The position numbers and the translations under genes are program-made. Source: Methylorubrum sp. B1-46 (lineage in GTDB: Bacteria; Pseudomonadota; Alphaproteobacteria; Rhizobiales; Beijerinckiaceae). From it: a DNA stretch of 64,000 bases. Positions 3,682-39,890 of this stretch are shown here, in pieces. The stretch lies in the NCBI RefSeq assembly GCF_021117295.1, contig NZ_CP088247.1, positions 2,123,001 through 2,187,000 of the forward strand. Reading direction: 5' to 3'. The notes under the pieces were generated by a model that was not told the DNA's origin, did not search any database, and saw only the letters and a list, made by a program, of their open reading frames with translations. Each line of letters starts with the position of its first letter. Positions within the stretch are counted from its first letter, which is position 1.

Positions 3682-3761
3682 AGTGTCTCTCACAAAACTC
3701 CCGCTGCGCCGTCATTGCCAGAATGACGACGGTCAGAGACCGGGAGTTTTGTGAGGCACTC
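3682..3761 (+). repeat. Family I dispersed hairpin repeat, copy A
   Basis: About 80 bp with long imperfect inverted arms: CTCACAAAACTCCCG on the left and CGGGAGTTTTGTGAGG on the right, bounded by AGTGTCT and GGCACTCT. Clear relatives lie at 8308, 19965, 21350 and 36299, and a decayed one near 39812. It fills most of the space between the hypothetical gene and tRNA-Val. Apart from it, the stretch 3624-3930 holds nothing I recognise. Confidence 0.9.
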
Positions 3762-3930
3762 TTAGCCGATTTTTGCCGCCCGCGTGCAATGGGGGCGCGG
3801 TCGCGAGGGCGGCGCCCGCGAGTTTCGACGTATGGCGTCAGATTCCGCCCACGCCCCGCTTGCGGAGCTCGTCGGCACCGGCTATAGCCGCGGCCTCGCA
3901 GGACGTCGGGGCCACCCGGACAGCCTGCCG

Positions 3931-4005
3931 GGGCGCGTAGCTCAGCGGGAGAGCACTACCTTGACATGGTAGGGGTCACAGGTTCGATCCCTGTCGCGCC
4001 CACCA
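3931..4005 (+). tRNA. tRNA-Val(GAC)
   Basis: A complete cloverleaf can be drawn by eye. The acceptor stem GGGCGCG (3931-3937) pairs with CGCGCCC (3995-4001). The D arm is GCTC/GAGC. The anticodon stem CTACC/GGTAG encloses the loop TTGACAT, giving anticodon GAC (valine). The T arm ACAGG/CCTGT encloses TTCGATC. The discriminator is A and CCA is encoded at 4003-4005. A terminator follows about 30 bp downstream. Confidence 0.97.
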
Positions 4006-4036
4006 TCCCACCCCGATGGGATGGACGATAGAGACC

Positions 4037-4061
4037 AAGGCTCCGGAAACGGGGCCTTTTT
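4037..4061 (+). terminator. Rho-independent terminator after tRNA-Val
   Basis: AAGGCTCC, a GGAAAC loop, then GGGGCCTT (stem with one G-U pair), running into five T residues. It lies 32 bp after the CCA end of the tRNA on the same strand. Confidence 0.85.
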
Positions 4062-4135
4062 CTTTGGCCCATCGACATTCCCGAACGTGGCCCGGCGCGC
4101 TCGACCGGCGTGCTGCGGAGATCCAATTCGAAACG

Positions 4136-4163
4136 AAAAAGCCCCGCCGTTTCCGGCAGGGCT
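4136..4163 (-). terminator. Rho-independent terminator of oxlT
   Basis: Read on the minus strand: AGCCCTGCC, a GGAAAC loop, GGCGGGGCT, then a run of T. It begins about 47 bp after the oxlT stop codon. It shares the same loop sequence as the tRNA terminator that faces it. Confidence 0.9.
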
Positions 4164-4209
4164 CTCTCGCATGGTTTCCCTCCGATCCCGAAGGACCAGA
4201 GGGGGTCGA

Positions 4210-5508
4210 TCAGGCGTGGGCCAGGGCCGCGTTCGGCACCGCCGCGTTGTTAGCGGCGTGGTGCTGCTTCAGCATCGGTCGCAGGACCGCGACAGCGAGG
4301 AAGGCGGCGATCAGGTCCATGGTAGCGACGGTGTAGAGCACCGACGACCAGGTGCCCGTGGCCTGCATCAGCAGGTTGCCGACCGGCACGAACAGGGCGG
4401 CGAAGCCCTTGGCGCAGTAGAGGACGCCGTAGATCTTGCCGATGTGCTTCGAGCCGAAGGTGTCGGCAGCCGTGGCGCTGAACAGCGAGTACACTTCGCC
4501 CCAGGCCAGGAACACGATGCCGGACAGGATCACGAAGGCCCAGGGGTTCGAGCCAAAGTAGCCCAACGCGACGATGCCGATGCCCTCCATCGCGAAGGCG
4601 ATGAACATCGTCTTCTCACGGCCGATCCGGTCGGAGATCCAGCCGAAGAGCGGACGCGAGATGCCGTTCATGACGCGGTCGAGCATCAGGGCGAAGGGCA
4701 GGGCCGCCATGGCGAAGAAGTACAGGTTCACCTGGAAGTTCTTCACGCCGAGGTCGGTCGCGATGACGCCGAGCTGGGCCACCGCCATCAGACCGCCGGT
4801 CACCGTGCAGGTGAACATCAGCAGCATGACGTAGAAGACCGGCGTGCGCAGGGCTTCGCCGAGGGTGTAGTCGCGGCGGGTCTGCAGAACCTTGGTCGAG
4901 AACTTGACCTCGTCCTTGGCCGGCGAGCGCATGAAGATGGAGGCCAGGATGATGACCGTGCCCTGGATCAGGCCGAAGACGAAGAAGGCCTGGGCGTAGC
5001 TGCCGGCGTCGATCATCTTGGCGATCGGCAGGATCGTCAGGGCCGAGCCCGCACCGTAGCCGCCCGCGGTGAGACCGACGGCCAAGCCGCGCTTGTCCGG
5101 GAACCACTTCAGGGCGTTGTTGATGCAGGTGGCGTAGACGCAGCCGACGCCGATGCCGCCGAGGACGGAGCCGAGATAGAACCCGCTCAGCGAGGTGGCG
5201 TAGGAGTTCACGACCCAGGCCGCGCCGGTCATCAGGCCGCCGAACATCACGACACGGCTCGGGCCGTACTTGTCGATGAAGTAACCCTCGATCGGGGTCA
5301 GCCAGGTCTGGACGACGACGAAGATGGTGAAGGCGACCTGGATCGCGGCGCGATCCCAGCCGAAGGTCTTCTGGATCTCAGGAACGAACAGGGTCCAGGC
5401 GTACTGAATGTTGGCCGCAGCCACCATGCAGATGACGCCGAAAACGATTTGCAGCCATCGGTTTGACGATGGTGCCGACCGATCTGGGGCGGTGGACGAT
5501 AGTGCCAT
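4210..5508 (-). CDS. oxlT: Oxalate/formate antiporter, major facilitator superfamily
   Basis: A 432-residue inner-membrane carrier with about 12 hydrophobic helices. It is close to the Oxalobacter OxlT pattern: an early QYAWTLFVPEI segment, DKYGPSRVVMFGG after the second helix, and the signature NNALKWFPDKRGLAVGLTAG between the first-half helices. OxlT exchanges oxalate for formate and supports oxalate import or degradation. ATG at 5508 is preferred over upstream starts because GAGGGAG precedes it at good spacing on the minus strand and the hydrophobic core follows soon after. It has its own strong terminator and is divergent from eutBC. The region between holds a palindromic operator-like site. 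Another dicarboxylate or monocarboxylate substrate cannot be excluded. Confidence 0.88.
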   Translation of the reverse strand: MALSSTAPDRSAPSSNRWLQIVFGVICMVAAANIQYAWTLFVPEIQKTFGWDRAAIQVAFTIFVVVQTWLTPIEGYFIDKYGPSRVVMFGGLMTGAAWVVNSYATSLSGFYLGSVLGGIGVGCVYATCINNALKWFPDKRGLAVGLTAGGYGAGSALTILPIAKMIDAGSYAQAFFVFGLIQGTVIILASIFMRSPAKDEVKFSTKVLQTRRDYTLGEALRTPVFYVMLLMFTCTVTGGLMAVAQLGVIATDLGVKNFQVNLYFFAMAALPFALMLDRVMNGISRPLFGWISDRIGREKTMFIAFAMEGIGIVALGYFGSNPWAFVILSGIVFLAWGEVYSLFSATAADTFGSKHIGKIYGVLYCAKGFAALFVPVGNLLMQATGTWSSVLYTVATMDLIAAFLAVAVLRPMLKQHHAANNAAVPNAALAHA

Positions 5509-6147
5509 GAGCGTGCTCCCTCGTGCCTGCACTGACGTGAAGGCTTGTTGTGTAGGTTTGGCGTGTCTTGCCTGAGTGGCGTCGGTGCAGGGTGTTGAAA
5601 TTCCTTCCTCTGCCGGTCGGATCCGAGGGCCCGTCTCCTCCCGAGCAGTGGTATGCATTATTTGGTATGCCAGGCATGCAGGCAAGCGAAATAATGCGCA
5701 ATCTGACACGAAAGTGAAGGCGTGGAAGGATGAAATCCCGGAACCCCACCGAAATCTGAAGCGAAGACAGAAGGTTCGCAGGCTGTGCGCCGCAGAGATT
5801 TGTGCGTTGCCGCAACCTTGACGCCGAAACGTCGTCTACCGCGAGCCAAAGGCCGACGGATCGGAAGATCCCGTCCAAAGCGGCGTCTTCAGAGCGTCTC
5901 GTGATGAGCTTCGCAGCGCGGGACGGCGGCGCTGCTATTACGAATGCGTTCCTGAAAAATAGCCAGGTCCCAACACGATCTGCGCTGGTGCGATCGGACG
6001 TTGTCCCGGCCAGGCGCCGTTCTTGCTTGAGGGCGCCCGCAGCCGGCGCGGACGGCTCGCGCCCCGCGCGAGGCCATCTCGCAGGAAATCACCTCGACAG
6101 GGCGCCTGATCCTTGCATCCTGTCGGGCGAGGCCAAGGAGGCACGCA
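5509..6147. other. Divergent regulatory region between oxlT and eutB
   Basis: 639 bp without a convincing gene. It must carry promoters for both oxlT (leftward) and eutB (rightward). Base composition becomes AT-richer around 5640-5720, where the inverted repeats described separately lie. I see no gene or RNA in the remainder. Confidence 0.6.
5655..5697. promoter_or_regulatory. Nested inverted repeats, candidate GntR-type operator
   Basis: A perfect 9-bp inverted repeat, GCATTATTT (5655-5663) and AAATAATGC (5689-5697), encloses a second perfect palindrome ATGCC-A-GGCAT (5667-5677) in the context TTGGTATGCCAGGCATGCA. FadR/FCD-type GntR regulators often bind TGGTATxCCA-like palindromes, so a GntR regulator of oxlT is a reasonable guess. 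No such regulator is encoded in this window. Confidence 0.55.
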
Positions 6148-7530
6148 ATGCCCTATCGCCACACCGTCGGTCCCCGCACCCACGTCTTCGCCGATCTGGC
6201 GACTCTGATGGCGAAGGCGACTCCGGTACGCTCCGGCGATTGCCTCGCGGGCATCGCCGCCGAATCGGCCGAGGAGACCATGGCCGCCCGCTGGTGCCTG
6301 GCCGAGGTCCCGCTCAAGGAGATCCTGTCGCGCCCTCTGATTCCCTACGAGGAGGACGATGTCACTCGCCTGATTCTCGACGATCACGACGAGGCGGCGT
6401 TTGCCGAGATCGCCGGCCTGACGGTTGGGGATTTCCGCGAGTTCCTGCTCACCGCCCCCTCCGCGACGCTGGCGCGAATCGCGCCGGGCGTGACCCCGGA
6501 GATCGCCGCCGCGGTGAGTAAGATCATGCGCAACCAGGATCTGATCCTGGTCGCCCGGAAGTGCCGCGTGGTCACGCGCTTCCGCAACACGATCGGCCTG
6601 CCCGGCACGCTCGCGGTGCGGCTCCAGCCCAATCATCCGACCGACGATCCGGCGGGCGTCACCGCCTCGATCCTCGACGGTCTTGCCTATGGCTGCGGCG
6701 ATGCGGTGATCGGCATCAATCCGGTCTCGGATTCGATCCAGACCATGGGCGCCCTGCTCACCCTGTTCGACGGCATCATCGAGCGTCTCGAGATCCCGAC
6801 GCAGGCCTGCGTGCTCACCCACGTCACGACCACGCTCGACGCGATGAACCATGGTCTGCCGGTCGATCTCGTGTTCCAGTCGATCGCCGGGACGCAGAGG
6901 GCCAATGCCAGTTTCGGCGTTACCCTGCCGATCCTGCAGGAGGCGCACGAGGCGGCGCTCGCGCTCAAGCGCGGCACGCTCGGCGACAACGTGATGTATT
7001 TCGAGACCGGCCAGGGCTCGGCGCTCTCGGCGGATGCGCATCACGGCATCGACCAGCAGACCTTGGAGGCCCGTGCCTACGCCGTCGCCCGGCGCTACCG
7101 GCCGCTGCTGGTCAACACCGTGGTCGGCTTCATCGGGCCGGAATACCTCTATAACGGCAAGGAGATCATCCGCGCCGGGCTGGAGGACCATTTCTGCGGC
7201 AAGCTGATGGGCGTGCCGCTCGGGGTCGACGTCTGCTACACCAACCATGCCGAGGCCGATCAGGACGACATGGACACCCTGCTGACCCTGCTGGGGGCGG
7301 CCGGCTGCACCTACGTGATGGGCATCCCCGGCGCCGACGACGTGATGCTGAACTACCAGTCCACCTCGTTCCACGATCAGCTCTACATCCGCGAGGTGCT
7401 GGGCCTGAAGCGGGCGCCCGAATTCGAGGAATGGCTCGCCCGCATCGGTCTCACCGACGCGAGCGGCGCCCTTCTGCCCGGCGGAGCCGACGCCCGCCTG
7501 CTCACCGCCGCGCCGGATCTCGCCGCATGA
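6148..7530 (+). CDS. eutB: Ethanolamine ammonia-lyase large subunit
   Basis: A 460-residue protein matching EutB over its full length, including the early PYEEDDVTRLI region and the central GDNVMYFETGQGSALSADA segment of the catalytic barrel. With EutC it forms the adenosylcobalamin-dependent enzyme that converts ethanolamine to acetaldehyde and ammonia. A strong AAGGAGG ribosome site lies just upstream of the ATG. The stop overlaps the eutC start by 4 bp (ATGA). No microcompartment, reactivase (eutA) or aldehyde dehydrogenase genes adjoin it, so this is the stand-alone type of ethanolamine-utilisation locus. Confidence 0.96.
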   Translation: MPYRHTVGPRTHVFADLATLMAKATPVRSGDCLAGIAAESAEETMAARWCLAEVPLKEILSRPLIPYEEDDVTRLILDDHDEAAFAEIAGLTVGDFREFLLTAPSATLARIAPGVTPEIAAAVSKIMRNQDLILVARKCRVVTRFRNTIGLPGTLAVRLQPNHPTDDPAGVTASILDGLAYGCGDAVIGINPVSDSIQTMGALLTLFDGIIERLEIPTQACVLTHVTTTLDAMNHGLPVDLVFQSIAGTQRANASFGVTLPILQEAHEAALALKRGTLGDNVMYFETGQGSALSADAHHGIDQQTLEARAYAVARRYRPLLVNTVVGFIGPEYLYNGKEIIRAGLEDHFCGKLMGVPLGVDVCYTNHAEADQDDMDTLLTLLGAAGCTYVMGIPGADDVMLNYQSTSFHDQLYIREVLGLKRAPEFEEWLARIGLTDASGALLPGGADARLLTAAPDLAA

Positions 7531-8309
7531 GCACCGAAAGCGCCCCCCTCTGGCAGCGGCTCGCCCGCCTCACGCCCGCTCGGATCGGCCTCGGCCGCGC
7601 CGGCGCCGGCCTGCCGACCCGCGAGGTGCTGAAATTCGGCCTCGCCCACGCCCAGGCCCGCGATGCCGTGCACACCCCGATGGAGGCTGCCGAAATCACG
7701 GGTGCCATCGAGGCCTTGGGCTGGCCGACCGTGACCGTGGCCTCCGGCGCGGAGGACCGCGCGACCTATCTGCGCCGGCCCGATTACGGGCGCCACCTCT
7801 CGCCGGAGAGCCTGAAGGCGCTGTCCGATTCCGCGGGCGAGCCCGTCGATCTCGCCCTCGTCGTCGCCGACGGCCTCTCGGCGCGGGCGGTTCACGAGGG
7901 CGCCGCCGCCCTGCTCGCCGCCTTCAAGCCCCATGCCGAGCGGGCCGGCTGGCGCCTCGCCCCGGTCGTGATCGCCACGCAGGCCCGCGTCGCGCTGGGG
8001 GATGCCGTCGGCGCCGCGCTGAAGGCCCGCGCGGTGGTGGTGGTGATCGGCGAGCGCCCCGGCCTGTCCTCGCCCGACAGCCTCGGCCTCTACGTCACCT
8101 TCGATCCGAGGGCGGGGCGCTCGGATGCGGAACGAAACTGCATCTCCAACGTCCGGCCCGCCGGCCTGAGCTTCGAACTCGCCGCATTCAAGCTGAACTG
8201 GCTCCTGACCCAGGCCTTTTCCCGCGGGCTGACGGGCGTGAACCTGAAGGATGAGAGTGACCGACTGATCGAGGCGAGTATCCCCGATCCTGTCATCGGC
8301 CCGCGCTGA
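7527..8309 (+). CDS. eutC: Ethanolamine ammonia-lyase small subunit
   Basis: A 260-residue protein with EutC features: TREVLKFGLAHAQARDAVH near the N-terminus, VVIGERPGLSSPDSLG in the middle, and C-terminal NCISNVRP motifs involved in cobalamin binding. Its ATG overlaps the eutB stop (ATGA), giving coupled translation. The TGA stop lies within the first bases of a family I repeat, so transcription probably runs straight into that hairpin. It works with EutB in ethanolamine breakdown and depends on adenosylcobalamin. BluB, which makes the lower ligand of cobalamin, is encoded near the right end of the window. Confidence 0.95.
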   Translation: MSTESAPLWQRLARLTPARIGLGRAGAGLPTREVLKFGLAHAQARDAVHTPMEAAEITGAIEALGWPTVTVASGAEDRATYLRRPDYGRHLSPESLKALSDSAGEPVDLALVVADGLSARAVHEGAAALLAAFKPHAERAGWRLAPVVIATQARVALGDAVGAALKARAVVVVIGERPGLSSPDSLGLYVTFDPRAGRSDAERNCISNVRPAGLSFELAAFKLNWLLTQAFSRGLTGVNLKDESDRLIEASIPDPVIGPR

Positions 8310-8389
8310 GTGTCTTCCACGAAACGCCCGCCGCGCCGCCGGCGTTGGAGCGAGTACGGCTCGGTGCTCGGGCGTTTCGTGAGGCACTC
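8308..8389 (+). repeat. Family I dispersed hairpin repeat, copy B
   Basis: GAGTGTCTTCCACGAAACGCCCG on the left and CGGGCGTTTCGTGAGGCACTCC on the right, with a GC-rich centre. It starts inside the eutC stop codon, in the same orientation as copies A and D. Confidence 0.9.
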
Positions 8390-8889
8390 CAGGCCTGTTC
8401 GACGGTACTCGACAGCATTGCTGCGGGGAAAGAACCGGCTCTCGTCATTCCGCAAGTCCGGAAACGCCGGGGTGGAAGCGGGTGTCACTGCAGAGACTGA
8501 TCTGCCGCGATACTCATGACCACCGGCCGCTCGTAAGATCTCCCGTTCCCAGGGAGAAGGCAGCCGGAAGTCTGGCTGAAAAATCATCTCCTCGCGGGAG
8601 CGCGGAGGATGGATGCACGTTGATGGTGCGAAGTCTTTCCGAAGCCGGCGCAAGCTCGGCTGTTGCGGCCCTGACACACCGCGAAAGCAACCTGACTTTG
8701 CCTTGAGCTGTGCCTTTGAGCGCCGCAATCCCACCATAAACCGGGACGACTTCCGGGGTCGCGGTAAACGCTGTCGCTCCAACGCCTTACCGCAGAGTTT
8801 CGAGGACGTCGAAGGACGTTTTTCCGCGTGAAGCCGTAGCGGGCGGCGCGGCCTCGGGGGCGTAACCGGACCGGGGCACGAGATCAGCG
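8390..8889. other. Intergenic region upstream of ilvD
   Basis: 500 bp after the family I repeat with no ORF I can support and no recognisable leader peptide or riboswitch. Short reading frames here lack ribosome sites and conserved motifs. It presumably holds the ilvD promoter. Confidence 0.5.
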
Positions 8890-14806: not shown

Positions 14807-14850
14807 AAGCCTCGTCCCGAAAGCCGGTGGCCACCTTTCGGGGTGAGGCT
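14807..14850. repeat. Family II palindromic repeat, copy 1
   Basis: GCCTCGTCCCGAAAGCCGG, TGGCCA centre, CCTTTCGGGGTGAGGC, forming an imperfect hairpin. It sits between the convergent DUF2490 gene and prpE, touching the prpE stop codon. It may double as a bidirectional terminator. Confidence 0.85.
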
Positions 14851-16776
14851 CTACCCTCCGATCCCGCGCGCCTTCAGGCTGTCGCCGATCTCCTCCAGGG
14901 CGGTCGGGTCCTCGATGGTCGGCGGCATCGAAAATTCCTCGCCGTCGGCGATGCGCTTCATCGTGCCGCGCAGGATCTTTCCGGAGCGCGTCTTCGGCAG
15001 GCGGCCGACAGTCAGTGCCAGCTTGAAGGCGGCCACGGGGCCGATCTCCTCACGGATGCGGGCGACCAACTCGCGCTCGATCGTCTCCGGGTCCTTGGCA
15101 ACACCGGCCTTGAGCACCACGAAGCCGCAGGGCGCCTCGCCCTTCAATGAATCGCGGATGCCGATCACCGCACATTCGGCGACGTCCGGATGCGAGGCCA
15201 GCACCGCCTCCATGCCGCCGGTGGAGAGGCGATGGCCGGCGACGTTGATGATGTCGTCGGTCCGGCCCAGCACCGTGACGTAGCCGTCCGCATCCACCAC
15301 GCCCGCATCCGAGGTGTCGTAGTAGCCGGGGAAGGTCGAGAGATAGCTCTGGCGGAAGCGCGCGTCCGAGCCCCACAGGGTCGGCAGGCAGCCCGGCGGC
15401 AGCGGGAGCTTGAGGGCGATGGTGCCCATCGTACCGGGCGGGACAGGCTTGCCGGATTCGTCGAGCACGTGGAGGTCGTAGCCCGGCATCGGCTTGGCGG
15501 TGGAGCCGTATTTCACCGGCAGCCGCTCGATGCCGATCGGGTTGCCGGCGATCGCCCAGCCGGTCTCGGTCTGCCACCAATGGTCGACCACCGGCCGCTC
15601 CAGCGCCCGCTCGGCCCAGGCCACCGAATCCGGATCGGCCCGCTCGCCGGCCAGGAACAGGGCGCGGAACTTCGACAGATCGTAGCCGCCGATCTGGTCG
15701 GCCCGCGGATCCTCCTTCTTGATCGCGCGGAGCGCCGTCGGCGCGGTGAACAGGGTGCAAACACCGTGCTCGGCCGCGACCCGCCAGAAGGCGCCGGCAT
15801 CCGGCGTACCGACCGGCTTGCCCTCGTAGAGCACCGTCGTGCAGCCGTGCAGCAGCGGCGCGTAGACGATGTAGGAATGGCCCACCACCCAGCCGATGTC
15901 GGAGGCGCAGAAATAGACCTCGCCGGGCGCGACACCGTAGAGGTTAGCCATCGACCATGTCAGCGCGACGCAGTAGCCGCCGCTGTCGCGCACCACGCCC
16001 TTGGGGCGCCCGGTCGTGCCCGAGGTGTAGAGGATGTAGAGCGGGTCGGTCGCTGCGACCGGCACCGGGTCGGCCCGGCGCCCGGCCGCGCGGGCCCGCG
16101 CGACGCTCTGGGCCCAATCGCGGTCGCGCCCCTCGATCAGGCTGGCTTCGGCCTGCGGTCGCTGCAGGATCAGGCAGGCGTCGGGCTTGTGGCTGGAACG
16201 CTCGATCGCCGCATCGAGCAGGGGTTTGTAGGCGACGGTGCGGGCCGGCTCGATGCCGCAGGAGGCGGCCAGGATCACCTTGGGCGCGGCATCCTCGATC
16301 CGGGCGGCGAGTTCGTTGGCGGCGAAGCCCCCGAACACCACCGAGTGGATCGCGCCGATCCGGGCGCAGGCCAGCATCCCGAACAGGGCTTCCGGCACCA
16401 TCGGCATGTAGATCACGACACGGTCGCCGTGACCCACGCCGAGGTCGCTCAGCAGGCCGGCGAGCACCGCCACCTCGTCGCGCAGCGCGCCGTAGGTGAT
16501 CGTGCGCCGGGTACCGGTGACGGGCGAATCATGGATGATTGCGGCCTGGTCGGCACGGCCGCCTTCCGCATGCCGGTCGACGGCGTTGCGGCAGACATTG
16601 AGCCGGGCATCCGGGAACCAGCGGCCGTAGACGCCCTGCTCCGGATCGAAGGCGCGGGTCGGCGCAACATCCCAATCGATCGCCGCGGCGGCCTTCAGCC
16701 AGAAGCCCTCCTTGTCGGCGAGCGAGGCGGCGTGAAGGGCGGCGTAGGCACCGTCAGTAGGCGGGGCGACGGACAT
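14851..16776 (-). CDS. prpE: Propionate--CoA ligase
   Basis: A 641-residue AMP-forming acyl-CoA synthetase. It has the acetyl-CoA-synthetase N-terminal cap, the P-loop-like YTSGTTGRPKGVVRD, SDIGWVVGHSYIVYAPLLHG, the adenylation motif WWQTETGW, and a C-terminal SGKILRGTMK with the acetylatable lysine. The PrpE/ACSS3 subfamily is indicated by GKPVGTPDAGAFWRV and FTAPTALRAIKKEDP. It activates propionate (and less well acetate) for the methylmalonyl-CoA or methylcitrate route. ATG at 16776 has the canonical synthetase start MSVAPPTDGAY close behind; longer frames add proline/arginine-rich sequence without homology. No prpBCD genes adjoin. Confidence 0.9.
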   Translation of the reverse strand: MSVAPPTDGAYAALHAASLADKEGFWLKAAAAIDWDVAPTRAFDPEQGVYGRWFPDARLNVCRNAVDRHAEGGRADQAAIIHDSPVTGTRRTITYGALRDEVAVLAGLLSDLGVGHGDRVVIYMPMVPEALFGMLACARIGAIHSVVFGGFAANELAARIEDAAPKVILAASCGIEPARTVAYKPLLDAAIERSSHKPDACLILQRPQAEASLIEGRDRDWAQSVARARAAGRRADPVPVAATDPLYILYTSGTTGRPKGVVRDSGGYCVALTWSMANLYGVAPGEVYFCASDIGWVVGHSYIVYAPLLHGCTTVLYEGKPVGTPDAGAFWRVAAEHGVCTLFTAPTALRAIKKEDPRADQIGGYDLSKFRALFLAGERADPDSVAWAERALERPVVDHWWQTETGWAIAGNPIGIERLPVKYGSTAKPMPGYDLHVLDESGKPVPPGTMGTIALKLPLPPGCLPTLWGSDARFRQSYLSTFPGYYDTSDAGVVDADGYVTVLGRTDDIINVAGHRLSTGGMEAVLASHPDVAECAVIGIRDSLKGEAPCGFVVLKAGVAKDPETIERELVARIREEIGPVAAFKLALTVGRLPKTRSGKILRGTMKRIADGEEFSMPPTIEDPTALEEIGDSLKARGIGG

Positions 16777-18865: not shown

Positions 18866-19993
18866 ATGGCTTCTTCCACGTCCACGCCGAACGTCCGGCC
18901 CGGCGGCACCCTCGGCATCGTCGGCGGCGGCCAGCTCGGGCGCATGATCGCGCTCGCCGCGGCCCAGTACGGCCTCAAGGTCCACATCTACGCCCCCGAC
19001 GCCGACAGTCCGGCCTTCGACGTGGCCCATGCCCACACGCTCGCGCCCTATGACGACGCGGCGGCGCTCGCTGCCTTCGCCGATGCCTGCGACGTCGTCA
19101 CCTACGAGTTCGAGAACATCCCCCACGCCACCGCCGCGGTGCTGGCCGAGCACGCGACCCTGCGCCCGAGCGCGACGGCGCTGCTCACCACGCAGGATCG
19201 CCTCTCCGAGAAGGATTTCGTCACGTCGCTTGGCATCCCGACGGCGCCCTACCGGGCGGTCGACACGGTCGAGGATCTGATCCGGGCCCTGGAGGTGCTG
19301 GGCCGTCCCGCCGTGCTGAAGACCCGGCGCTTCGGCTATGACGGCAAGGGCCAGCGGATGATCCGCGAGGGCGACGACCCGGCCGCCCTTTTGGCCGAGT
19401 TCAAGGGCGTGCCCTGCATCCTCGAAGGCTTCGTGCCGTTCGAGCGCGAGATCTCGGTGGTCGCCGCCCGCGGACCCGATGGCGCGTTCGCGGCCTACGA
19501 CCCCTGCGCCAACGAGCACCGCGACCATATCCTCGCCCTCACGCGCGTGCCCGCGCCGGGGCTGACGCGCGCGACCGGTGAGGCGGCCATCGCCATCGCT
19601 CGCTCCATCGCCGAGGCGCTGGACTATGTCGGCGTGCTTGCGGTCGAGATGTTCGAGATCGCCGGGGCTGACGGCGCCGCCCGCCTCGTCGTCAACGAGA
19701 TCGCGCCGCGCGTGCACAATTCCGGGCACTGGACGATCGAGGGCGCGCTGACCTCCCAATTCGCGCAGACCGTGCGCGCCGTCTGCGGCTGGCCGCTGGG
19801 CGACACCGCCCGCACCGGCGGCATGGCGGTGGAGATGGAGAACCTCATCGGCGATCAGGCCGAGGCCTGGGCCGGACTGCTGGCGGAGCCGGGTGCCCAC
19901 CTTCACCTCTACGGCAAGGCCGAGGCCCGCCCCGGCCGCAAGATGGGCCACGTCACCCGGCTCGGAGTGCCTCAAAAAACGCCCGCTCACTGA
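18866..19993 (+). CDS. purK: N5-carboxyaminoimidazole ribonucleotide synthase, C-terminus supplied by a repeat
   Basis: A 375-residue ATP-grasp enzyme. It opens with GTLGIVGGGQLGRM (the nucleotide/AIR-binding loop), followed by TYEFENIP, the central LKTRRFGYDGKGQ and the metal-binding VNEIAPRVHNSGHWTIEGA. It makes N5-CAIR from AIR, bicarbonate and ATP. The conserved body ends around KMGHVTRLG; the last residues (VPQKTPAH) and the TGA are encoded by the left arm of a family I repeat that begins at 19965. The repeat therefore inserted at, or replaced, the natural end of the gene. All catalytic parts are intact. Confidence 0.95.
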   Translation: MASSTSTPNVRPGGTLGIVGGGQLGRMIALAAAQYGLKVHIYAPDADSPAFDVAHAHTLAPYDDAAALAAFADACDVVTYEFENIPHATAAVLAEHATLRPSATALLTTQDRLSEKDFVTSLGIPTAPYRAVDTVEDLIRALEVLGRPAVLKTRRFGYDGKGQRMIREGDDPAALLAEFKGVPCILEGFVPFEREISVVAARGPDGAFAAYDPCANEHRDHILALTRVPAPGLTRATGEAAIAIARSIAEALDYVGVLAVEMFEIAGADGAARLVVNEIAPRVHNSGHWTIEGALTSQFAQTVRAVCGWPLGDTARTGGMAVEMENLIGDQAEAWAGLLAEPGAHLHLYGKAEARPGRKMGHVTRLGVPQKTPAH

Positions 19994-20040
19994 CCGTTCT
20001 CGCTCTGGCGCGGGCAGCGGGCGTGCTGTGAGAGACACTC
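19965..20040 (-). repeat. Family I dispersed hairpin repeat, copy C (inside the purK 3' end)
   Basis: GAGTGCCTCAAAAAACGCCCG on the left and GCGGGCGTGCTGTGAGAGACACTC on the right, inverted relative to copies A, B and D. Bases 19965-19993 are the end of the purK coding sequence, including its stop. Confidence 0.9.
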
Positions 20041-20489
20041 AAGCTGCCCGGCTGAGGTGCTCCCCGGCGAAATCGCCGCCGGTTCGGCGCGAGGGCGCGC
20101 ATCGAGCGACTCCGACGCTGAGCCGTTCGATCTGTCGCCTCTTCGCAACAGCAAACCTCCGTCGAACCCCGTTCGGTGCCTCGGCCGAAGCGTTGAAGAC
20201 GCGAGCCACACCTTCGCCACATCCCGAGGTTTCAGCGGAGAGGACAGGGCGTTCGCGGAAAGCACGGTGCGCGTTCTACCGGTCTTCGCCGGACGAACGA
20301 GCCCGCTCTTGACCGGTTTCGGCTCAAAAACCTCCGCTTCACGGCCCGCGCCGGCCATGCGGATGTTTTGCGAGACCGTTTAAGCGCCCATTCACCGTGT
20401 TGCGGCAGCGTGCGCGCGACGGGATGATCCGGGCCCTTGAGGGGCCGCCGCGGAGATCCGGACGAGCGGGCGCGGGGGAGAACGTGAAG
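20041..20489. other. Intergenic region between purK and the TPR lipoprotein gene
   Basis: About 450 bp after the family I repeat. Reading frames on both strands lack conserved motifs and ribosome sites. I see no RNA gene. A purine-rich GGGGGAG near 20475 is the ribosome site for the next gene. Confidence 0.5.
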
Positions 20490-21350
20490 ATGATCGGGAT
20501 GACGCTGGACGGACGCAAGGCGGGGCTGATCGGGGCCCTCGCGCTGACGGCCGCGGCGCTGGCCGGCTGCGAGACCTATGGCAGCGCGACCGCCCCGCGC
20601 CAGTTCGCGGTGCTGGAGACCGACACCACGGGCGCCACCAACGTCAACATCGCCTCGCTCAGCGACGTGATCTCGCGCAACCCCTCGGATGCCGGCGCCT
20701 ACGTCACCCGCGGGGCCGCCTATGCCCGCTCGGGCCAGTTCGGCGAGGCGATCACCGATTTCTCGAAGGCGATCCAGCTCGATCCGAACTCGGCCTCGGC
20801 CTACAACAACCGGGCGCTCGCCTACCGCCAGACCGGCCGCAACGACGCCGCGATGCAGGATTTCTCGAAGGCGATCGCCACCGATCCGAACTTCTCCGCC
20901 GCCTATATCGGCCGGGCCAACCTCGAGCGCGCGCAGGGCGACCTCAACGGCGCGCTCAACGACCTCAACGTCGCGATCCGTCTCGCCCCCGAATCGGCCG
21001 AGGCCTACCACGCCCGCGGTCTCGTGCGGCAGAAGCAGGGCCAGAACCCGGAGGCGATCGGCGACTTCGCGGCCGCGATCGACCGCAATCCCTTCGTCGC
21101 CGCGCCCTACGCCGCCCGCGGCCAGAGCCTGATCTCGCTGGGCCAGTACGACAAGGCGATCGAGGACTTCAACGCGGCGCTCAATGTCAACGCGAAGGAT
21201 GCCGGGTCCTGGGCCTATCGCGGCCTCGCCTACGAGAAGACGAACCGCCGCAAGGAGGCGAGCGAGAGCTACCAGCAGGCGGCTCGCCTCGACCCCAACA
21301 ACGCCGTGGCCAAGCAGGGCGTCGGCCGCATGCAGGGCGGCCTGTTCTAA
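20490..21350 (+). CDS. TPR-repeat lipoprotein
   Basis: A 286-residue protein. A type II signal peptide ends in the lipobox LAGC, so the mature protein is a lipid-anchored envelope protein. It is followed by about seven 34-residue tetratricopeptide repeats (AYVTRGAAYARSGQFGEAI, AYNNRALAYRQTGRNDAAM, WAYRGLAYEKTNRRKEAS). The NlpI-like layout suggests a scaffold for envelope enzymes, but the partner is unknown. ATG at 20490 has GGGGGAG 9 bp upstream. The last base of the TAA stop is the first base of a family I repeat. Confidence 0.9.
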   Translation: MIGMTLDGRKAGLIGALALTAAALAGCETYGSATAPRQFAVLETDTTGATNVNIASLSDVISRNPSDAGAYVTRGAAYARSGQFGEAITDFSKAIQLDPNSASAYNNRALAYRQTGRNDAAMQDFSKAIATDPNFSAAYIGRANLERAQGDLNGALNDLNVAIRLAPESAEAYHARGLVRQKQGQNPEAIGDFAAAIDRNPFVAAPYAARGQSLISLGQYDKAIEDFNAALNVNAKDAGSWAYRGLAYEKTNRRKEASESYQQAARLDPNNAVAKQGVGRMQGGLF

Positions 21351-21430
21351 GTGTCTCTCACAAAACGCCCGTCGCGCTGTCCTCGCCAGGGCGAGAACGG
21401 TCGGTGACTGGGAGTTTTGTGAGGCACTCT
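21350..21430 (+). repeat. Family I dispersed hairpin repeat, copy D
   Basis: AGTGTCTCTCACAAAACGCCCG on the left and GGGAGTTTTGTGAGGCACTCT on the right. The left arm carries the CGCCC variant and the right arm the CTCCC-type variant, so it is not a perfect palindrome. It begins exactly at the stop codon of the TPR lipoprotein gene. Confidence 0.9.
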
Positions 21431-34412: not shown

Positions 34413-35108
34413 TCAGACTCGGGCGGAGAGCGGTGTATGGCGGGCCGGGCTGCGCGGCGTCTCGGCGTCGAGGACCGGGGCGAGGCCGAGCTGGCGGGCG
34501 AGCTTGACGAGATCCTTCAGGCGGCCGGTCTGCGTCTTGCGGCGCAGGTTCAGCCGGTGGGTCTCGACCGTCCGCACGCTCAGGGAGAGCCGGCGGGCGA
34601 CCTCCTTGTTGCTGAAGCCGGCGCTGAGGAAGCGCAGAACCTCCGCCTCGCGGGGCGTGAGGCCGATGCCCAGGTCGTCGTCCGCGGAACGGGCGGCCGA
34701 CGGCGCGGGCGAAACCCCGTTCGCGAGGGCGAGCACGCTGGCGCAGACCTCCTCGGCCGGTGTGCCCGCGCCGATGAAGGCGTCGGCTCCCGCCGCGATC
34801 AGCCGGTTCATCGCCGGGGCGTCGAGGGTTCGGAACACCGCCAGCACCCGCAGCCAGGGCCGGCCTTCGCGCAAGGTCGCGATCCGGAGGCAGCCCGCTC
34901 CCGCGCCGGCGCCGTCCACCGGGACCAGCGCCACGACCGGCACCGGACCGCCCCGGACGAGTTCGTCCTCCCCGATCGTGCGCAGGGCCGGCGCGTGCTC
35001 CAGCCCGGCCCGCAGCCGGTCGTCCAGTCCGGCCGCCTCATCGACGATCAACAACGCGACGGCCCTGCTGGCGGTGTGGCCGGCGGTATGACTGACGGCT
35101 TGACTCAT
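34413..35108 (-). CDS. NarL/FixJ-like LuxR regulator with a degenerate receiver
   Basis: A 231-residue protein. The C-terminal LuxR helix-turn-helix is textbook (LTPREAEVLRFLSAGFSNKEVARRL, SVRTVETHRLNLRRKT, residues about 150-205). The first 130 residues have the length and alternating strand/helix pattern of a receiver, with a final RLIAAGADAFIGAGTPAEEVC. However, the acidic pair, the phosphoacceptor Asp and the Lys are not recognisable. It therefore probably acts without phosphorylation. It is convergent with cydA, which makes control of respiration conceivable but unproven. Confidence 0.82.
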   Translation of the reverse strand: MSQAVSHTAGHTASRAVALLIVDEAAGLDDRLRAGLEHAPALRTIGEDELVRGGPVPVVALVPVDGAGAGAGCLRIATLREGRPWLRVLAVFRTLDAPAMNRLIAAGADAFIGAGTPAEEVCASVLALANGVSPAPSAARSADDDLGIGLTPREAEVLRFLSAGFSNKEVARRLSLSVRTVETHRLNLRRKTQTGRLKDLVKLARQLGLAPVLDAETPRSPARHTPLSARV

Positions 35109-35355
35109 GCCGCTCCCCTCTCGTCCCGCCGCAGAACGGTGCGGCTCGTGCGGAGAAGAAAGAACAAGAGTCGTTCCAGCGGCTTAGGGGTGATTCAGGC
35201 GCCAAAATGACCCCGCGCGGAGCCGTCCGGCAGCCGCTGTCCCGCTTCGAGACGAGCGGGGGCGGAAAGCGGAGGCGGGAGATGACCGAAAACAGGCCGC
35301 TTCCCGCTTCGGCGCGGTGGCGGACCCACTTGCGGCGCGCGTGACCGTCGCCGGG

Positions 35356-36252
35356 TCAGGCCGTCCGGGAGAGGATGAGGTCGGTCATCGCCGAGACCAC
35401 GCGATTGCGACCCGTGGTCTTGGCCTCGTACAGGGCGATATCCGCCCGTTTCAGAAGGCCGTCGATGGTCTCGCCCTCGGACCACGCGCTGACGCCGAAG
35501 CTGCAGGTGAGGCGCACGGGGCCCTTGGGCGAACGGATGCGCAGGTCGGACGCCTTCAGGCGCAGGCGCGATGCGACGGCCTCGGCCTCGGTGAGGCGCA
35601 GCCCGGGAAGCACCACCGCGAACTCCTCGCCGCCCAGACGCCCGGAAATGCCTTCCGCCTCGAGCAGCCCGGCCACCGCCTTGATCGCCGCGTCGCCGAC
35701 ATCGTGCCCGTGCTCGTCGTTGATGCGCTTGAAGTGGTCGATGTCGAGGAGGACGGCGCAGAGATGTCCGAACGCGCCGGTCTTGTTGGCGGCCTCCCGC
35801 GTGTGGAGCAGGAACGCGCGGCGGTTGAGCAGGCCGGTGAGCGGATCGGTCTCGGCGAGCCGGATCAGGTCGCCCTGAAGCGTGGTGAGGCGCTCGGCGG
35901 CCCGCAGGCGCGCCTGCAATTCCTCGGCGCCCGGCGGCTTGTCGATGAAGTCGTCGGCGCCGCTGTCCAGCGCCTCGGCGAGGTTGCGGGCGTTGCGGGC
36001 CGAGGACATGGCGATGATCGAGAGCGGGCGGCTCGACTCGGCCAGCAGGCGGGCCGACCAGCACAGTTCCAACCCGCTCAGCGGCCGGACCTCCAGGCTG
36101 GTGATCAGGGCGCGGACCGCGGGATTTTCGGTGACGTAGGCAAGCGCCTCGGCGGAATCGATGAATTGCGACACGACATGTCCGCGCGGTTCGAGCATGC
36201 CCGCCACGATTCGCAGGACGACGCGGCTCGAATCCACGATGACGATGTGCAC
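35356..36252 (-). CDS. Diguanylate cyclase with a receiver-like domain
   Basis: A 298-residue protein. Residues 1-125 form a receiver-like fold (VHIVIVDSSRVVLRIVAGML) in which the phosphoacceptor position reads LITSLEV, Ser replacing Asp; the switch Lys is kept (DFIDKPPG). The GGDEF domain follows, with TDPLTGLLNRRAFL, LDIDHFKRINDEHGHDVGD and the catalytic GGEEF. The RxxD inhibitory site is missing upstream of GGEEF. It should make cyclic di-GMP. GTG at 36252 is chosen because AAGGGGG lies 8 bp upstream; an in-frame TTG at 36294 is less likely. Confidence 0.88.
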   Translation of the reverse strand: MHIVIVDSSRVVLRIVAGMLEPRGHVVSQFIDSAEALAYVTENPAVRALITSLEVRPLSGLELCWSARLLAESSRPLSIIAMSSARNARNLAEALDSGADDFIDKPPGAEELQARLRAAERLTTLQGDLIRLAETDPLTGLLNRRAFLLHTREAANKTGAFGHLCAVLLDIDHFKRINDEHGHDVGDAAIKAVAGLLEAEGISGRLGGEEFAVVLPGLRLTEAEAVASRLRLKASDLRIRSPKGPVRLTCSFGVSAWSEGETIDGLLKRADIALYEAKTTGRNRVVSAMTDLILSRTA

Positions 36253-36298
36253 GGCGCTGGCCCCCTTGAACGAGGGAGATTGTGCACAAGACAAGTTA

Positions 36299-36378
36299 AG
36301 AGTGCCTCACACAACTCCCGGCCACCGACCGTTCTCGCTCCGGCGAGGACAGCGCAGCGGGCGTTTCGTGAGAGACAC
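36299..36378 (-). repeat. Family I dispersed hairpin repeat, copy E
   Basis: AGAGTGCCTCACACAACTCCCGG on the left and GCGGGCGTTTCGTGAGAGACAC on the right, inverted relative to copies A, B and D. It lies just upstream of the diguanylate cyclase gene, between its start and the convergent end region of the next leftward gene. Confidence 0.9.
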
Positions 36379-36446
36379 GAAGGGTCGTCGAAGGCAGCGC
36401 TGCCGCGCGCGTGGCGCCGGCAGGGCCCCACTATCCCCCATCGGGA

Positions 36447-36908
36447 TTACCGCGTGCGGGCCGGCACCCGGACCGAAACCACCTGCGCGCCGCCCACTGC
36501 GCCCTCGGATCGCGGGCCCGGATCGGTCCAGATCCCCTTGGAGTCTTTCGTGAGGACGCGGGCACTCGGCCGACGGATCGCGGGACGGCTCCTGACCGAG
36601 CCTTGTCGCTCGATCACGGTGAGCGTCGGGCGCGCGACCGGCGCGTCCCGGATGCCCGCCACCGTGGGGACGCCGTAGGTGCCGTAGCCCCAGGCCGGCG
36701 GTACGATCCGGCTCGTGCTGGGAAGCCGGGTGAACGGCGCGCCGAGATAGGCACCCTCGACCACCGGGCCGGCAAAGCGGTACCCGCCATCGCTATATCC
36801 GTAGGCATAGCCATACGGGTCGGCGGAAGCCCCCGAAGCGGTGCCGAGCACGAGCAGGGTGGCAAGGCCGGCGGCGCGGACGAGGGCGGGACGTAGGGTG
36901 CGGCGCAT
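36447..36908 (-). CDS. Secreted glycine/tyrosine-rich hypothetical protein
   Basis: A 153-residue protein with a Sec signal peptide (MRRTLRPALVRAAGLATLLV, cleavage near ASA-DP at residue 30). The mature N-terminus is glycine/tyrosine-rich (PYGYAYGYSDGGYRF) and the remainder is basic and proline-rich, without cysteines. ATG at 36908 is chosen so that the signal peptide starts directly; an upstream start at 36965 would put 19 charged residues ahead of it. It is likely periplasmic or surface-associated. Unknown family. Confidence 0.75.
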   Translation of the reverse strand: MRRTLRPALVRAAGLATLLVLGTASGASADPYGYAYGYSDGGYRFAGPVVEGAYLGAPFTRLPSTSRIVPPAWGYGTYGVPTVAGIRDAPVARPTLTVIERQGSVRSRPAIRRPSARVLTKDSKGIWTDPGPRSEGAVGGAQVVSVRVPARTR

Positions 36909-37030
36909 GGATCGAGACTTCTCCGGTGGCGCAGGCCGAGGCGCGCGATTCACGACGCGAGTCACGGTATGAAAGCGGCCGCACCCATGCTCGTTCCCCC
37001 GACCCCCGTCCCGCCAGCCGATGCAGAGTA

Positions 37031-37152
37031 CTGATACGGTCTCCGCTTGGTCAGAGCGGGGAGCGGATCAGCCAGCCCGCGCGGCGCCCGAGGAGGGATC
37101 CCGCCACGGCCACATCCGGCATCCTGAAGGAGGCATCCGGATTTGGTATGAG
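37031..37152 (+). repeat. Family III dispersed repeat, copy 1
   Basis: About 120 bp starting CTGATACGGTCTCCGCTTG and ending ATCCGGATTTGGTATGAGG. It shares most bases with the copy at 47969. Two hairpins can be drawn; the second is more degenerate here (CACATCCGG against CCGGATTTGG) than in copy 2. It lies between two leftward small secreted-protein genes. Confidence 0.85.
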
Positions 37153-37182
37153 GCGGGTGGCGGTTCTGCCGCGCGAGTGCGC

Positions 37183-37431
37183 TCAGCGACAGATCGTGAC
37201 GCGACGAACGATCCAGCCTTCCCCCTCGATCCACAGGCGACGGCGCTGCTTGTTGCAATTGGCGCTGTCCTCCTCGCTGTCCGCGGCCACGGACGTCTGG
37301 GAGACCTGCGTGGCCTCCGCGATTTGCGTGGTGCTGCGGCTGGCGGCCGGGGCGGCGAGGGCCGGGGGCGCGGACAAGCCGATCAGAACGAGGCCGGCGA
37401 AGGCGGCCGCGGCGGAGGAATGCGCGATCAT
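37183..37431 (-). CDS. Small secreted protein with two cysteines
   Basis: An 82-residue protein with a Sec signal peptide (MIAHSSAAAAFAGLVLIGL, cleavage near ALA-AP at residue 26). A serine/threonine/glutamine-rich linker is followed by a basic C-terminus with Cys in SANCNKQRR and VTICR, which could form one disulfide. No known domain. A family III repeat lies just downstream of its stop. Confidence 0.65.
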   Translation of the reverse strand: MIAHSSAAAAFAGLVLIGLSAPPALAAPAASRSTTQIAEATQVSQTSVAADSEEDSANCNKQRRRLWIEGEGWIVRRVTICR

Positions 37432-37872
37432 GATATCCTGCCCGCGCGCCGTGGCGGGCGCGCTTCAACGGTTCAGTTGGTGCGGCCGGTGGTCCGCCTT
37501 GCAGGCGCCACGGCATCTTGCATCAACAATCCCCAACGTGGCCGTTGGGTTTCGCGCCAATTTCGAGAAAGCGGCGAAAATTTGTCTACCATCCGCGGTC
37601 AGACCGCGGCGCGGCGGCGCGATTTTGCCGTCTCAAGCCCGATGCTTGCGAAGACGGGGCAAAGAGTTGTACTGGCACGCGAGGCGAAGAACGCCGTTTG
37701 GTCGTCGGAAAATGATCTGATCTTCTTGTTAGGAACGTTTCTAAGCTGAGATTTGCATCAGAATATTACGATGGCGTGACAAGTATTGGCGGCGCTGTGT
37801 GGAGTGGCGCTGCGGTTGAGGAAGACAATCCGCCGGGACGTGCGTCAAGCGGATCGAAACGGGAGCAATCGG
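37432..37872. other. Divergent intergenic region upstream of the iron permease
   Basis: 441 bp between a small secreted-protein gene and the FTR1 permease gene. It contains an AT-rich part (37700-37780) with a near-perfect 16-bp palindrome listed separately. GGGAG at about 37861 is the permease ribosome site. No gene is seen. Confidence 0.5.
37729..37744. promoter_or_regulatory. Candidate iron-control palindrome upstream of FTR1 gene
   Basis: TTAGGAACGTTTCTAA, palindromic apart from one symmetric mismatched pair. It resembles the iron control element bound by Irr in alphaproteobacteria (TTAGAA half-sites facing TTCTAA). Its place about 130 bp before an iron permease gene supports the idea, but this is pattern matching by eye. 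Confidence 0.4.
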
Positions 37873-38700
37873 ATGGCGGACGGATCGACGTTCGTGCAGG
37901 CTTTCATCATCCTGTTCCGCGAGGGACTGGAAGCTCTGCTGGTGATCGCGGCGCTCGCCGCCTTCCTTCGCCGCGCGAATGCGGCGGAGCGGATCGCACC
38001 GGTCTATATGGGCGCGCTCGCCGCCGTCGCCGCCAGCGCGGTCATGGCTTGGGTGTTCGCGACCTTCTACGACGGCAACCACAGCGACCTGTTCGAGGCC
38101 GGCGTGATGCTCGCGGCGGCGGTGCTGCTGTTCTACATGAGCGGCTGGATGTTCGTTCGCCAGGACCCGAAGGCGTGGCAGGCCGATCTCAACCGGCTCG
38201 CCGAGCGGGCGCTGGGCGCGGGCACCGTGCTGTCGCTGGCCGGCATCGCCTTCCTCGCGGTGTTCCGCGAGGGTGCTGAGACGATCCTGTTCGTCCACGC
38301 CCTGGCCAAGACAGCCAACGGCTTCGACGCCTCGCTCCTGAGCGGGCTGGCCGCGGCGGCGGTGGCGTTGGTGGCGATGTTCGTGGCGATGCAGTGGCTG
38401 GCCCTGCGCCTGCCGCTGCGCCCGATGTTCATCGTGACCTCGGCCTTCCTGTTCTTCATGGGCCTGCGGATGGTCGGCGAGGCGTTCCAGGAGCTTCAGG
38501 AGCAGGCGCTGATCCCCTTCACCACCGAGGGCGTGCCCGCCTTCGTTTCCGATTGGGGCCTGAGCAACGGAAGCTGGGAGGCGCTCGGCACCCAGCTCGT
38601 GATCCTGACCGTGGCCGTGGCGGCTGCTCTCGTCAGCCTCCTGCGCAAGGGAAACGATAAGACGGCCAGCGAGGGCCGGCCGGTCTCGGCGGCCTCCTGA
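37873..38700 (+). CDS. FTR1-family iron permease
   Basis: A 275-residue, seven-helix inner-membrane protein. Two iron-binding REGLE-type motifs are visible: FREGLEALLVI near residue 16 and FREGAETILFV near residue 135, in the two pseudo-repeats typical of FTR1/EfeU. Such permeases move oxidised iron across the membrane. ATG at 37873 has GGGAG 8 bp upstream. No EfeO or EfeB partner, copper oxidase or cytochrome partner is adjacent, so the source of oxidised iron is unclear. A possible Irr site lies upstream. Confidence 0.92.
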   Translation: MADGSTFVQAFIILFREGLEALLVIAALAAFLRRANAAERIAPVYMGALAAVAASAVMAWVFATFYDGNHSDLFEAGVMLAAAVLLFYMSGWMFVRQDPKAWQADLNRLAERALGAGTVLSLAGIAFLAVFREGAETILFVHALAKTANGFDASLLSGLAAAAVALVAMFVAMQWLALRLPLRPMFIVTSAFLFFMGLRMVGEAFQELQEQALIPFTTEGVPAFVSDWGLSNGSWEALGTQLVILTVAVAAALVSLLRKGNDKTASEGRPVSAAS

Positions 38701-38779
38701 TCCGCGAGCCGGCGCCCCTGTCCGAGGTGGGCGCCGGCCGCCGCCGCCGATCGACGCGACGCGTCGGGGACTGGTCGCG

Positions 38780-39266
38780 TCAGGACTCGGGCCGTATCCC
38801 GTCGAACAGGTAGACCACGGGCTCGAAGGCCCGTGCCTCCGCCTCGATGATCTGCGAAAGGATCGTCCACGATCCCGCCCGCGAGCCCGGCGCCGATGAG
38901 CGGGAAAGCGACCGCCTCGAATCCGTCCCTGCGGGCGCGCGCATCGATGGCGCGCAGGACCGTCCGCACCGCCTCGTCATCGACGGAGACGCGTCCCTTC
39001 GCCCGCCCATCGTCGCGCTGCGTCACCGCGTTGACGATGAGGCGCCCGTCGGCGGCGCGGACCCAGGTCGCGCTGCCGAGCGGCAGGCCCGCTTCCGGAT
39101 CGTTCGAGCTCTCGAAGGCCGCGCGGTAGGCGCAAAAAGCCTCCGGGCAGCGCCGCTTGACCTGCCGCGCGAGGCCGGCACCCATCTTGCCGAAGGCGTC
39201 GCAGTCGTGGACGAGGACGCGTTCCGGCCCGGCAAAGATGTCACCCTCGCGGTCACGGATCTTCAC
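38780..39266 (-). pseudogene. Macrodomain (ADP-ribose-binding) protein with a 1-bp frameshift
   Basis: The first 130 residues form a macrodomain: KIRDREGDIFAGPERVLVHD, CDAFGKMGAGLARQVKRRCP, VNAVTQRD and FPLIGAGLAGG. At about 38873-38876 the frame changes: the expected C-terminus (SWTILSQIIEAEARAFEPVV, then YLFDGIRPES and a TGA at 38780) is encoded in another frame, and one base must be removed to join them. Left as it is, translation would run on into sequence antisense to the iron permease end. Either a recent inactivating insertion or a sequencing error explains this. It would bind or hydrolyse ADP-ribose derivatives. Confidence 0.75.
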
Positions 39267-39275
39267 GCAACGCCC

Positions 39276-39749
39276 TCACCCCTTCAGTCGGGACTTGATC
39301 CGGTAGGTCAGGCCGTCACGCACGTCGCGGTAGCCGTCGAGGCGCTGCTCGCGGGTGCCGTCCTGCACCAGGGTCGGGTCCGGCGTCGGCCAGTACTCGA
39401 CATCCGCCGCCAGGGTGTGCGTCAGTTCGAGCGCCCGGTGGTGGGCCTCCGGCGACAGGGTGATGATCAGGTCGAAGTTCAGCCCTTCCCAATCCTCGAG
39501 CTGCTCGATGGTCCGCGGCTTGTGGCGGGCAGCGTCGATGCCGATCTCGTCGAGCGCCGCGATCATGAACGGGTCGCTCGGCTCACCCGAGCGCACGCCG
39601 GCCGACTGCACGTAGGTGGACTTGCCAAAATAGTGGCGCGCGATCGCCTCCGCCGCCAGCGAGCGCACCGCGTTGAAATTGCACATAAACAGGACCGACT
39701 GGACCCGCTGCTTCTTCGGCCCGGTCCCCGGGATGGCGTCGTCCGTCAT
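39276..39749 (-). CDS. Low-molecular-weight protein tyrosine phosphatase family protein
   Basis: A 157-residue protein with the active-site loop C23-N-F-N-A-V-R29-S (CX5R) after the first strand, SAGVRSGEPSDPF, and the Asp-containing TPDPTLVQ late loop. This fits the LMW phosphatase/arsenate reductase fold, with the CNFNAxRS variant that is common in alphaproteobacteria. Substrate unknown. ATG at 39749 is chosen for length. The gene belongs to the leftward DUF2948-hisD-UPF0262-phosphatase block. Confidence 0.88.
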   Translation of the reverse strand: MTDDAIPGTGPKKQRVQSVLFMCNFNAVRSLAAEAIARHYFGKSTYVQSAGVRSGEPSDPFMIAALDEIGIDAARHKPRTIEQLEDWEGLNFDLIITLSPEAHHRALELTHTLAADVEYWPTPDPTLVQDGTREQRLDGYRDVRDGLTYRIKSRLKG

Positions 39750-39811
39750 GCCCTGCCTGAGAGCAGGGTTCCGAGGGAAGGGCGCCGGCCGGTCGGAAAA
39801 GTCGATGCAGA

Positions 39812-39890
39812 CACCGTGCCCTCTCGCGAAGCGCCCCCGTCCTCTCGCGCCGATGCACCACGGATCGGGCGTTTCGTGACGTGCTCGTGC
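39812..39890 (-). repeat. Family I repeat, decayed copy F
   Basis: GTGCCCTCTCGCGAAGCGCCCCCG on the left and ATCGGGCGTTTCGTGACGTGC on the right. It is similar in layout and arm sequence to the other family I copies but has many changes, so membership is probable only. Confidence 0.5.

Follow-up and report, generated by a model that had tools for sequence, protein, structure and literature searches.

The window analysed here, a stretch of 64,000 nucleotides of the Methylorubrum sp. B1-46 genome (assembly GCF_021117295.1, contig NZ_CP088247.1, positions 2,123,001 to 2,187,000), contains five clear copies of a dispersed hairpin repeat, which we refer to as Family I. We conclude, with a probability of roughly 0.88, that Family I is a miniature inverted-repeat transposable element (MITE), namely a 79-bp palindrome without a transposase, and that an IS5-type DDE transposase encoded elsewhere putatively acts on its ends in trans. 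Its insertion duplicates a 3-bp TNA target. A first-pass annotation, made from the letters of the window alone, had described the repeat as a non-autonomous mobile element, and the target duplications, an empty site, the copy number and the inverted ends all bear out this description.

The 79-bp palindrome and its copies

The alignment of 31 genome copies in one orientation defined a consensus unit of 79 bp, which starts with GTGTCTCTCACAAAAC[T/G]CCCG and finishes with CGGG[A/C]GTTTTGTGAGGCACTC. Its 16-letter ends are GTGTCTCTCACAAAAC on the left and GAGTGCCTCACAAAAC on the right, and the short element has no coding capacity. We built the covariance model R1 from these 31 copies, including the five from the window; one copy with a gapped right arm (L009) was excluded from the alignment and from the flank table. 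R1 produced 114 matches at E <= 0.01 in the genome (5.50 Mb, four contigs), of which 26 were opposite-strand matches at the same place and three were weak, leaving 85 distinct places. All of them are located on contig 1, the other three contigs totalling only about 0.1 Mb. This number is far above the ten or so copies that had been set as the lower limit for the family, and both orientations occur as annotated, with 41 of the 85 copies on the + strand. The 16-base end, with up to two mismatches allowed, was found 63 + 63 times in the genome as opposed to once for the reversed pattern, which together with the 114 model matches excludes chance.

The length is exactly 79 bp in 57 of the copies and ranges from 72 to 84 bp over all 85. 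The arms of these 57 copies form terminal inverted repeats, with pairing at 729 of the 855 positions. The annotated swap between CTCCC and CGCCC arms is real, since the two variable positions read T:A in 33 of these copies, G:C in nine, G:A in eight, T:C in two and otherwise in five. Covariation between the two is significant (Fisher p 0.00025 for T:A against G:C). However, mixtures are common, with ten copies reading T:C or G:A, so that two subtypes with added point changes account for the swap as well as gene conversion does.

The copies in the window and their flanks are as follows, with scores from R1.

3680..3682: TTA target duplication, left of copy A, from the sequence
3683..3761, + strand: copy A, 79-bp MITE, 104.2 bits
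3762..3764: TTA target duplication, right of copy A, from the sequence
8307..8309, + strand: TGA left of copy B, the stop codon of eutC (gene 7431-8309); the right flank is CAG and the duplication is no longer left
8310..8389, + strand: copy B, 80 bp, 80.6 bits; the same site is occupied in M. aminovorans (L053)
19965..20038, - strand: copy C, 74 bp, with a 5-bp internal deletion, inserted within the final codons of purK between TCG and TCA, 77.5 bits; empty site in the relatives G009 and G005
20039..20041: TCA, the surviving target copy of copy C, from the sequence and the empty-site alignment
21348..21350, + strand: TAA target duplication left of copy D, the stop codon of a tetratricopeptide-repeat (TPR) protein gene (20397-21350), from the sequence
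21351..21429, + strand: copy D, 79-bp MITE, 96.5 bits
21430..21432: TAA target duplication, right of copy D, from the sequence
36300..36378, - strand: copy E, 79-bp MITE, flanks TAA and GAA, 93.5 bits
39816..39886, + strand: doubtful decayed copy F, 20.5 bits, E 0.013

Copies A to E are therefore real (104, 81, 78, 97 and 94 bits), and the sequence confirmed that copies B and D begin at a stop codon and that copy C holds one. The fixed ends first described as AGTGTCT are indeed shared, albeit with a corrected start, because AGTGTCT includes one base of the target. Copy F is doubtful: its score falls inside the range that true copies reach on their reverse strand (17.9-37.8 bits), the triplets on its two sides read ACC and GTG, and it is missing from the genome-wide matches at E <= 0.01.

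The TNA target, stop codons and the hairpin

The flanks of the copies carry the trace of insertion. TNA was found at 54 of the 85 left flanks and 60 of the 85 right flanks, as opposed to 0-8 at offsets of 1-11 bases outward. Identical TNA pairs enclose 29 of the 85 copies (TGA 12, TTA 12, TAA 4 and TCA 1), whereas at the shifted offsets only 0-6 copies have matching triplets, TNA or other. At these 29 clean sites, C precedes the triplet in 23 and G follows it in 18, revealing a preference for CTNAG. Target duplications are seen in 18 of the 31 copies of the flank table, and in 30 loci from the genus (one of them from genome G000) TNA stands to the left of the element 22 times and to its right 19 times, with 11 identical pairs.

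An empty site was found for copy C: its joined flanks with one copy of the target align without gaps to both G009 and G005, over 82 columns each. The insertion swapped the last codons of purK for a new stop inside the element. Four eutC orthologues without copy B (L054, L056, L057, L073) likewise end in TGA; the empty sites for copies B, D and E are merely suggestive, with intergenic flanks too diverged for a base-exact alignment. Insertion at TNA also has observations that weigh against it. TNA stands on neither flank in 13 of the 85 copies, window copies B, C and E have no intact duplication, and the closest MITE pair (1983382 and 1983463, with a 3-bp gap) is separated by TGG instead of TNA.

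In the mechanism that we propose, a transposase would bind the inverted ends and then excise or copy the element, which would be joined to a staggered cut at TNA, and repair would duplicate the TNA. Because the element starts with G and finishes with C, insertion into CTNAG would recreate CTNAG on both sides, each of them open to the next element. TNA is scarce in a genome of 69% GC, and TAA and TGA stop codons would be among the safest TNA sites, because the duplication restores the stop codon and leaves the protein unchanged. This could explain why copies often lie at gene ends and why many of the surviving ones are on stop codons. A stop codon overlapping the target of an IS5-family element has a precedent in IS870 of Agrobacterium.

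The placement of the copies is consistent with such a target. In 35 of the 85 copies, a gene-like frame ends with the flanking triplet as its stop codon (33 TAA or TGA and two TAG). Gene-like here means open over 60 codons or more and rich in GC at third codon positions, as called independently of gene annotation. The off-frame controls on 70 sides gave three and five stops when read one or two bases out. Such stop codons underlie 12 of the 29 copies with clean duplications and 12 of the 30 genus loci. As the background, we counted TNA sites in about 254 kb, comprising the window and 14 stretches around copies with the elements and the outer 1 kb excluded: 383 sites are at stops, 1605 are in the gaps that separate gene-like frames, and 3468 are in the interior of such frames. 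In comparison, 35 copies lie on stops, 43 between frames and seven inside them (13 of the 85 by a looser test of whether a gene-like frame spans the site). Stops thus account for 35 of the 78 non-interior copies versus 19% of the non-interior TNA sites (p 2e-7), and for 33 of 76 once the two TAG cases are removed (p 1e-6).

This excess, together with the off-frame controls, could indicate that the copies were retained for a function, the hairpin behind the stop codon ending transcription or protecting the mRNA, with mobility as the mere route of spread. The folding energies of the five window copies also fit a selected hairpin, with z-scores from -1.6 to -7.1 as DNA and from -2.9 to -6.8 as RNA, although any palindrome folds well and folding is weakest in copies C and E. 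However, weighting the background by the insertion preference raised the expected stop share to 32%, with p at 0.01, or at 0.02 once the TAG cases are removed. This test is rough, since the weights were taken from the very copies under test and the background stretches had been selected for containing copies. Nor do the genes take one side, as they face the left end in 21 cases and the right end in 14 (p 0.31). The T tract of a terminator was not found either: of 170 sides, 8 have a T-rich stretch after the hairpin as opposed to 5 of 170 further out, so that the annotated terminator-like character was not supported.

The scant covariation likewise speaks against a selected hairpin. RNAalifold on the 31 copies revealed changes on both sides in only 2 of 23 pairs, so that compensatory changes are nearly absent and the conservation looks like that of transposon ends instead of an RNA fold. 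Of the structure conservation anticipated over more copies, the palindrome is kept, whereas RNA-fold covariation is scant. We consider retention of the copies for their hairpin unlikely, and the stop-codon excess can be explained mostly by target choice plus the loss of harmful insertions. The small remaining excess could reflect selection for the hairpin, which may have a role behind stop codons. A broader, speculative and rather improbable extension is that stop codons act as a genomic safe harbour: the CTNAG target would make the element settle there, its own duplication would regenerate the stop, and dozens of genes would thus be followed by one common hairpin, which throughout the genus would have become a 3' signal for the ends or the stability of mRNAs.

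The same fold might suggest a conserved RNA gene or riboswitch. Searches of Rfam at its gathering thresholds found nothing at the copies, the sole match in the window being a tRNA at 3931-4002 near copy A. Furthermore, placement and orientation of the copies vary and the arms are conserved as sequence, which makes an RNA gene a negligible alternative.

The first-pass annotation had also pointed to repetitive extragenic palindromic (REP) sequences, which are spread by a REP-associated tyrosine transposase (RAYT) of the Y1 HUH type. Family I resembles REPs and their mosaic arrays, the bacterial interspersed mosaic elements (BIMEs), in being a short palindrome with numerous copies in both orientations. 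It differs from them by its 3-bp TNA duplications, by its two inverted ends and by the lack of any match to the Y1 transposase model in the whole genome, where the same search was positive in 5 of 14 control genomes. Y1 transposition is not known to yield TNA duplications or two inverted ends, nor are REPs known to produce a TNA duplication. A RAYT is thus ruled out for this genome unless it differs from Pfam Y1_Tnp or was lost, and we regard this route of spread as very unlikely.

Family I is of interest as a case in which target choice steers a parasite to stop codons, sites at which its insertion is nearly harmless. It also provides rough numbers on the share of target choice versus possible selection at stop codons, and a collection of genes that all end in this hairpin and in which effects on mRNA ends can be tested.

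A candidate partner among IS5-type elements

For the mobilising transposase, insertion sequences (ISs) of the ISMch2 kind are a probable source, at somewhat better than even odds. ISMch2, carried by the M. extorquens CM4 plasmid pCMU01 (L237), has TTA on both sides and one end reading GAGTGCCTAACAGAAC, while an ISMch2-type remnant in another genome (L358) ends in GAGCGCCTCACAGAAC; the MITE right end GAGTGCCTCACAAAAC matches each of them at 14 of 16 positions. In 31 loci, we found 21 ISMch2-type elements with both ends present, 15 of them exactly 861 bp long. TNA flanks them on 40 of 42 sides (one flank being cut by a contig end) and is identical in 15 of the 21 pairs. ISMch2 therefore shares with Family I the TNA duplication, one end and the genus.

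Elements of the ISMch2 type also abut the MITE via TTA in two places. In genome G000 (L049), an IS end and a MITE share one TTA between them, and in genome G040 (L197), IS, TTA, MITE, TTA and IS stand in a row. Such a row would fit stacking of elements, given that insertion into CTNAG creates a fresh CTNAG on either side. Two IS5-type transposase remnants adjoin MITE copies in L035 and L049, and the frames of the L035 remnant match IS5-family models, scoring above the Pfam cut-off for DDE_Tnp_1_2.

Several results weigh against a partner of the ISMch2 kind. The commonest ISMch2-type end, GAGCGCCTAACAGAAC, matches the MITE right end at only 13 of 16 positions, and the MITE left end GTGTCTCTCACAAAAC matches IS ends at only 10-11 of 16 (11 of 16 for ISMch2). 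ISMch2 is 861 bp long and carries a transposase gene, and nothing is common inside the ends: over 17 IS loci, the only match to R1 was the separate MITE copy in L197. The L035 fragments score below the NCBIfam cut-off, and two L049 frames have no Pfam match, the transposase call at L049 resting on a DDE_Tnp_1 match. A complete IS with the exact ends of the MITE was not found within 1.5 kb on each side of the 22 DDE_Tnp_1 loci of the genome itself. Three end patterns, run against 111 genus genomes, did not reveal a complete IS with MITE ends either, although such patterns can overlook an IS if its ends continue like those of the MITE; this search returned MITE copies, singletons and one ISMch2-type remnant (L358). 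Moreover, ISMch2-type genes occur in 9 of 23 MITE-rich genomes versus 26 of 76 others (Fisher p 0.80), with MITE-rich meaning at least 20 matches, ISs counted at E <= 1e-40 and the tally made by hand.

The imperfect end matches (14 and 11 of 16 at best) and the independence of MITE copy number from ISMch2-type genes would suit a true partner from another IS5 group, either lost from the genus or bearing longer ends that our patterns missed, with ISMch2 as a cousin using the same target. The intermediate end at L358 speaks against this because it belongs to an ISMch2-type remnant. We regard another IS5 group as a serious contender, albeit at somewhat less than even odds; the partner proper to Family I may have been lost, or cousins of it may be used instead. 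Within the IS5 family, the account of the IS427 group describes elements of 832-865 bp, some with two overlapping frames, and duplications of 2 or 4 bp (PMC3281130).

Two further leads were followed and dropped. L359 was rejected as an IS end in spite of 15 of 16 matching positions, as no ISMch2-type piece matches there and none of the nine listed frames looked transposase-like by eye. The transposase frames of the genome itself, compared with 30 end-pattern loci, gave matches of 25 and 30 residues, both on MITE copies (L224, L231). These were taken as matches of MITE to MITE because the L035 query frame runs into the adjoining MITE.

Spread of the family and neighbouring repeats

The 57 copies of 79 bp are alike at a median of 78% in pairwise comparison and at 96% at best, which suggests an old family with few recent pairs. 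Matches to R1 at E <= 0.001 occur in 74 of the 99 genus genomes, where up to 47 candidates were scored per genome and counts near 47 are to be read as at least that number. One further MITE site is common to six genomes (L300-L303, L306, L311). The empty copy-C site, the shared copy-B site and this six-genome site together suggest lineage-specific insertions plus long inheritance, and most copies look old and now passed on with the chromosome. In the plasmid collection, three records match Family I, with best identities of 81-82%.

The family has several end types within the genus. Distant copies start with GAGCCTCTCACAGAAC or GAGCCTCTCACAAAAC, and others end with GTGCACCTCAC read inwards (L173, L175, L176, L169, L170, L197). 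The ends of the L176 copy form a nearly perfect palindrome.

Short elements tied to a resident IS by their ends have been described in other bacteria. MITEAba12 of Acinetobacter, as described in PMC6382973, is 111-114 bp long, is tied to a co-resident IS by its ends and its duplication, and shows duplications in 40% of 90 copies. Unlike Family I, it has a 9-bp duplication, AT-rich targets and putative outward promoters (PMC6382973). RUP of Streptococcus pneumoniae is given as 107 bp with 108 copies and ends that resemble an IS of its genome, and differs from Family I by its partner IS630-Spn1 and the TA in its target (PMC2229807).

Within the same genus, the comparison of M. extorquens AM1 and DM4 reports MiniMdi3, of about 400 bp and related to ISMdi3, as the one MITE, and its Table 1 lists four and eight MITEs, respectively (PMC2680597). 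MiniMdi3 is set apart from Family I by this description, notably the length. Among the papers listed from the openly licensed literature, MiniMdi3 is the MITE named for the genus, and no paper naming ISMch2 was found in that literature, subscription journals lying mostly outside the search. Family I thus appears to be an undescribed repeat family of the main model group for methylotrophy.

Other repeats occur near the copies. A second dispersed repeat of the form AGCATCGTCCCGAAAGGTGG ... CCGGCTTTCGG ... GACGATGC lies at 14817-14854, 51473-51598, 58927-58977 and 59801-59838, including a tandem 63-bp pair at 51473 and 51536; a sequence resembling it occupies the copy-D site in the relative G005. 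The segment at about 21794-21899 matches places in several genus genomes and is probably another repeat. Lastly, a 68-bp pair with 91% identity was found at 37025-37092 and 47963-48030.

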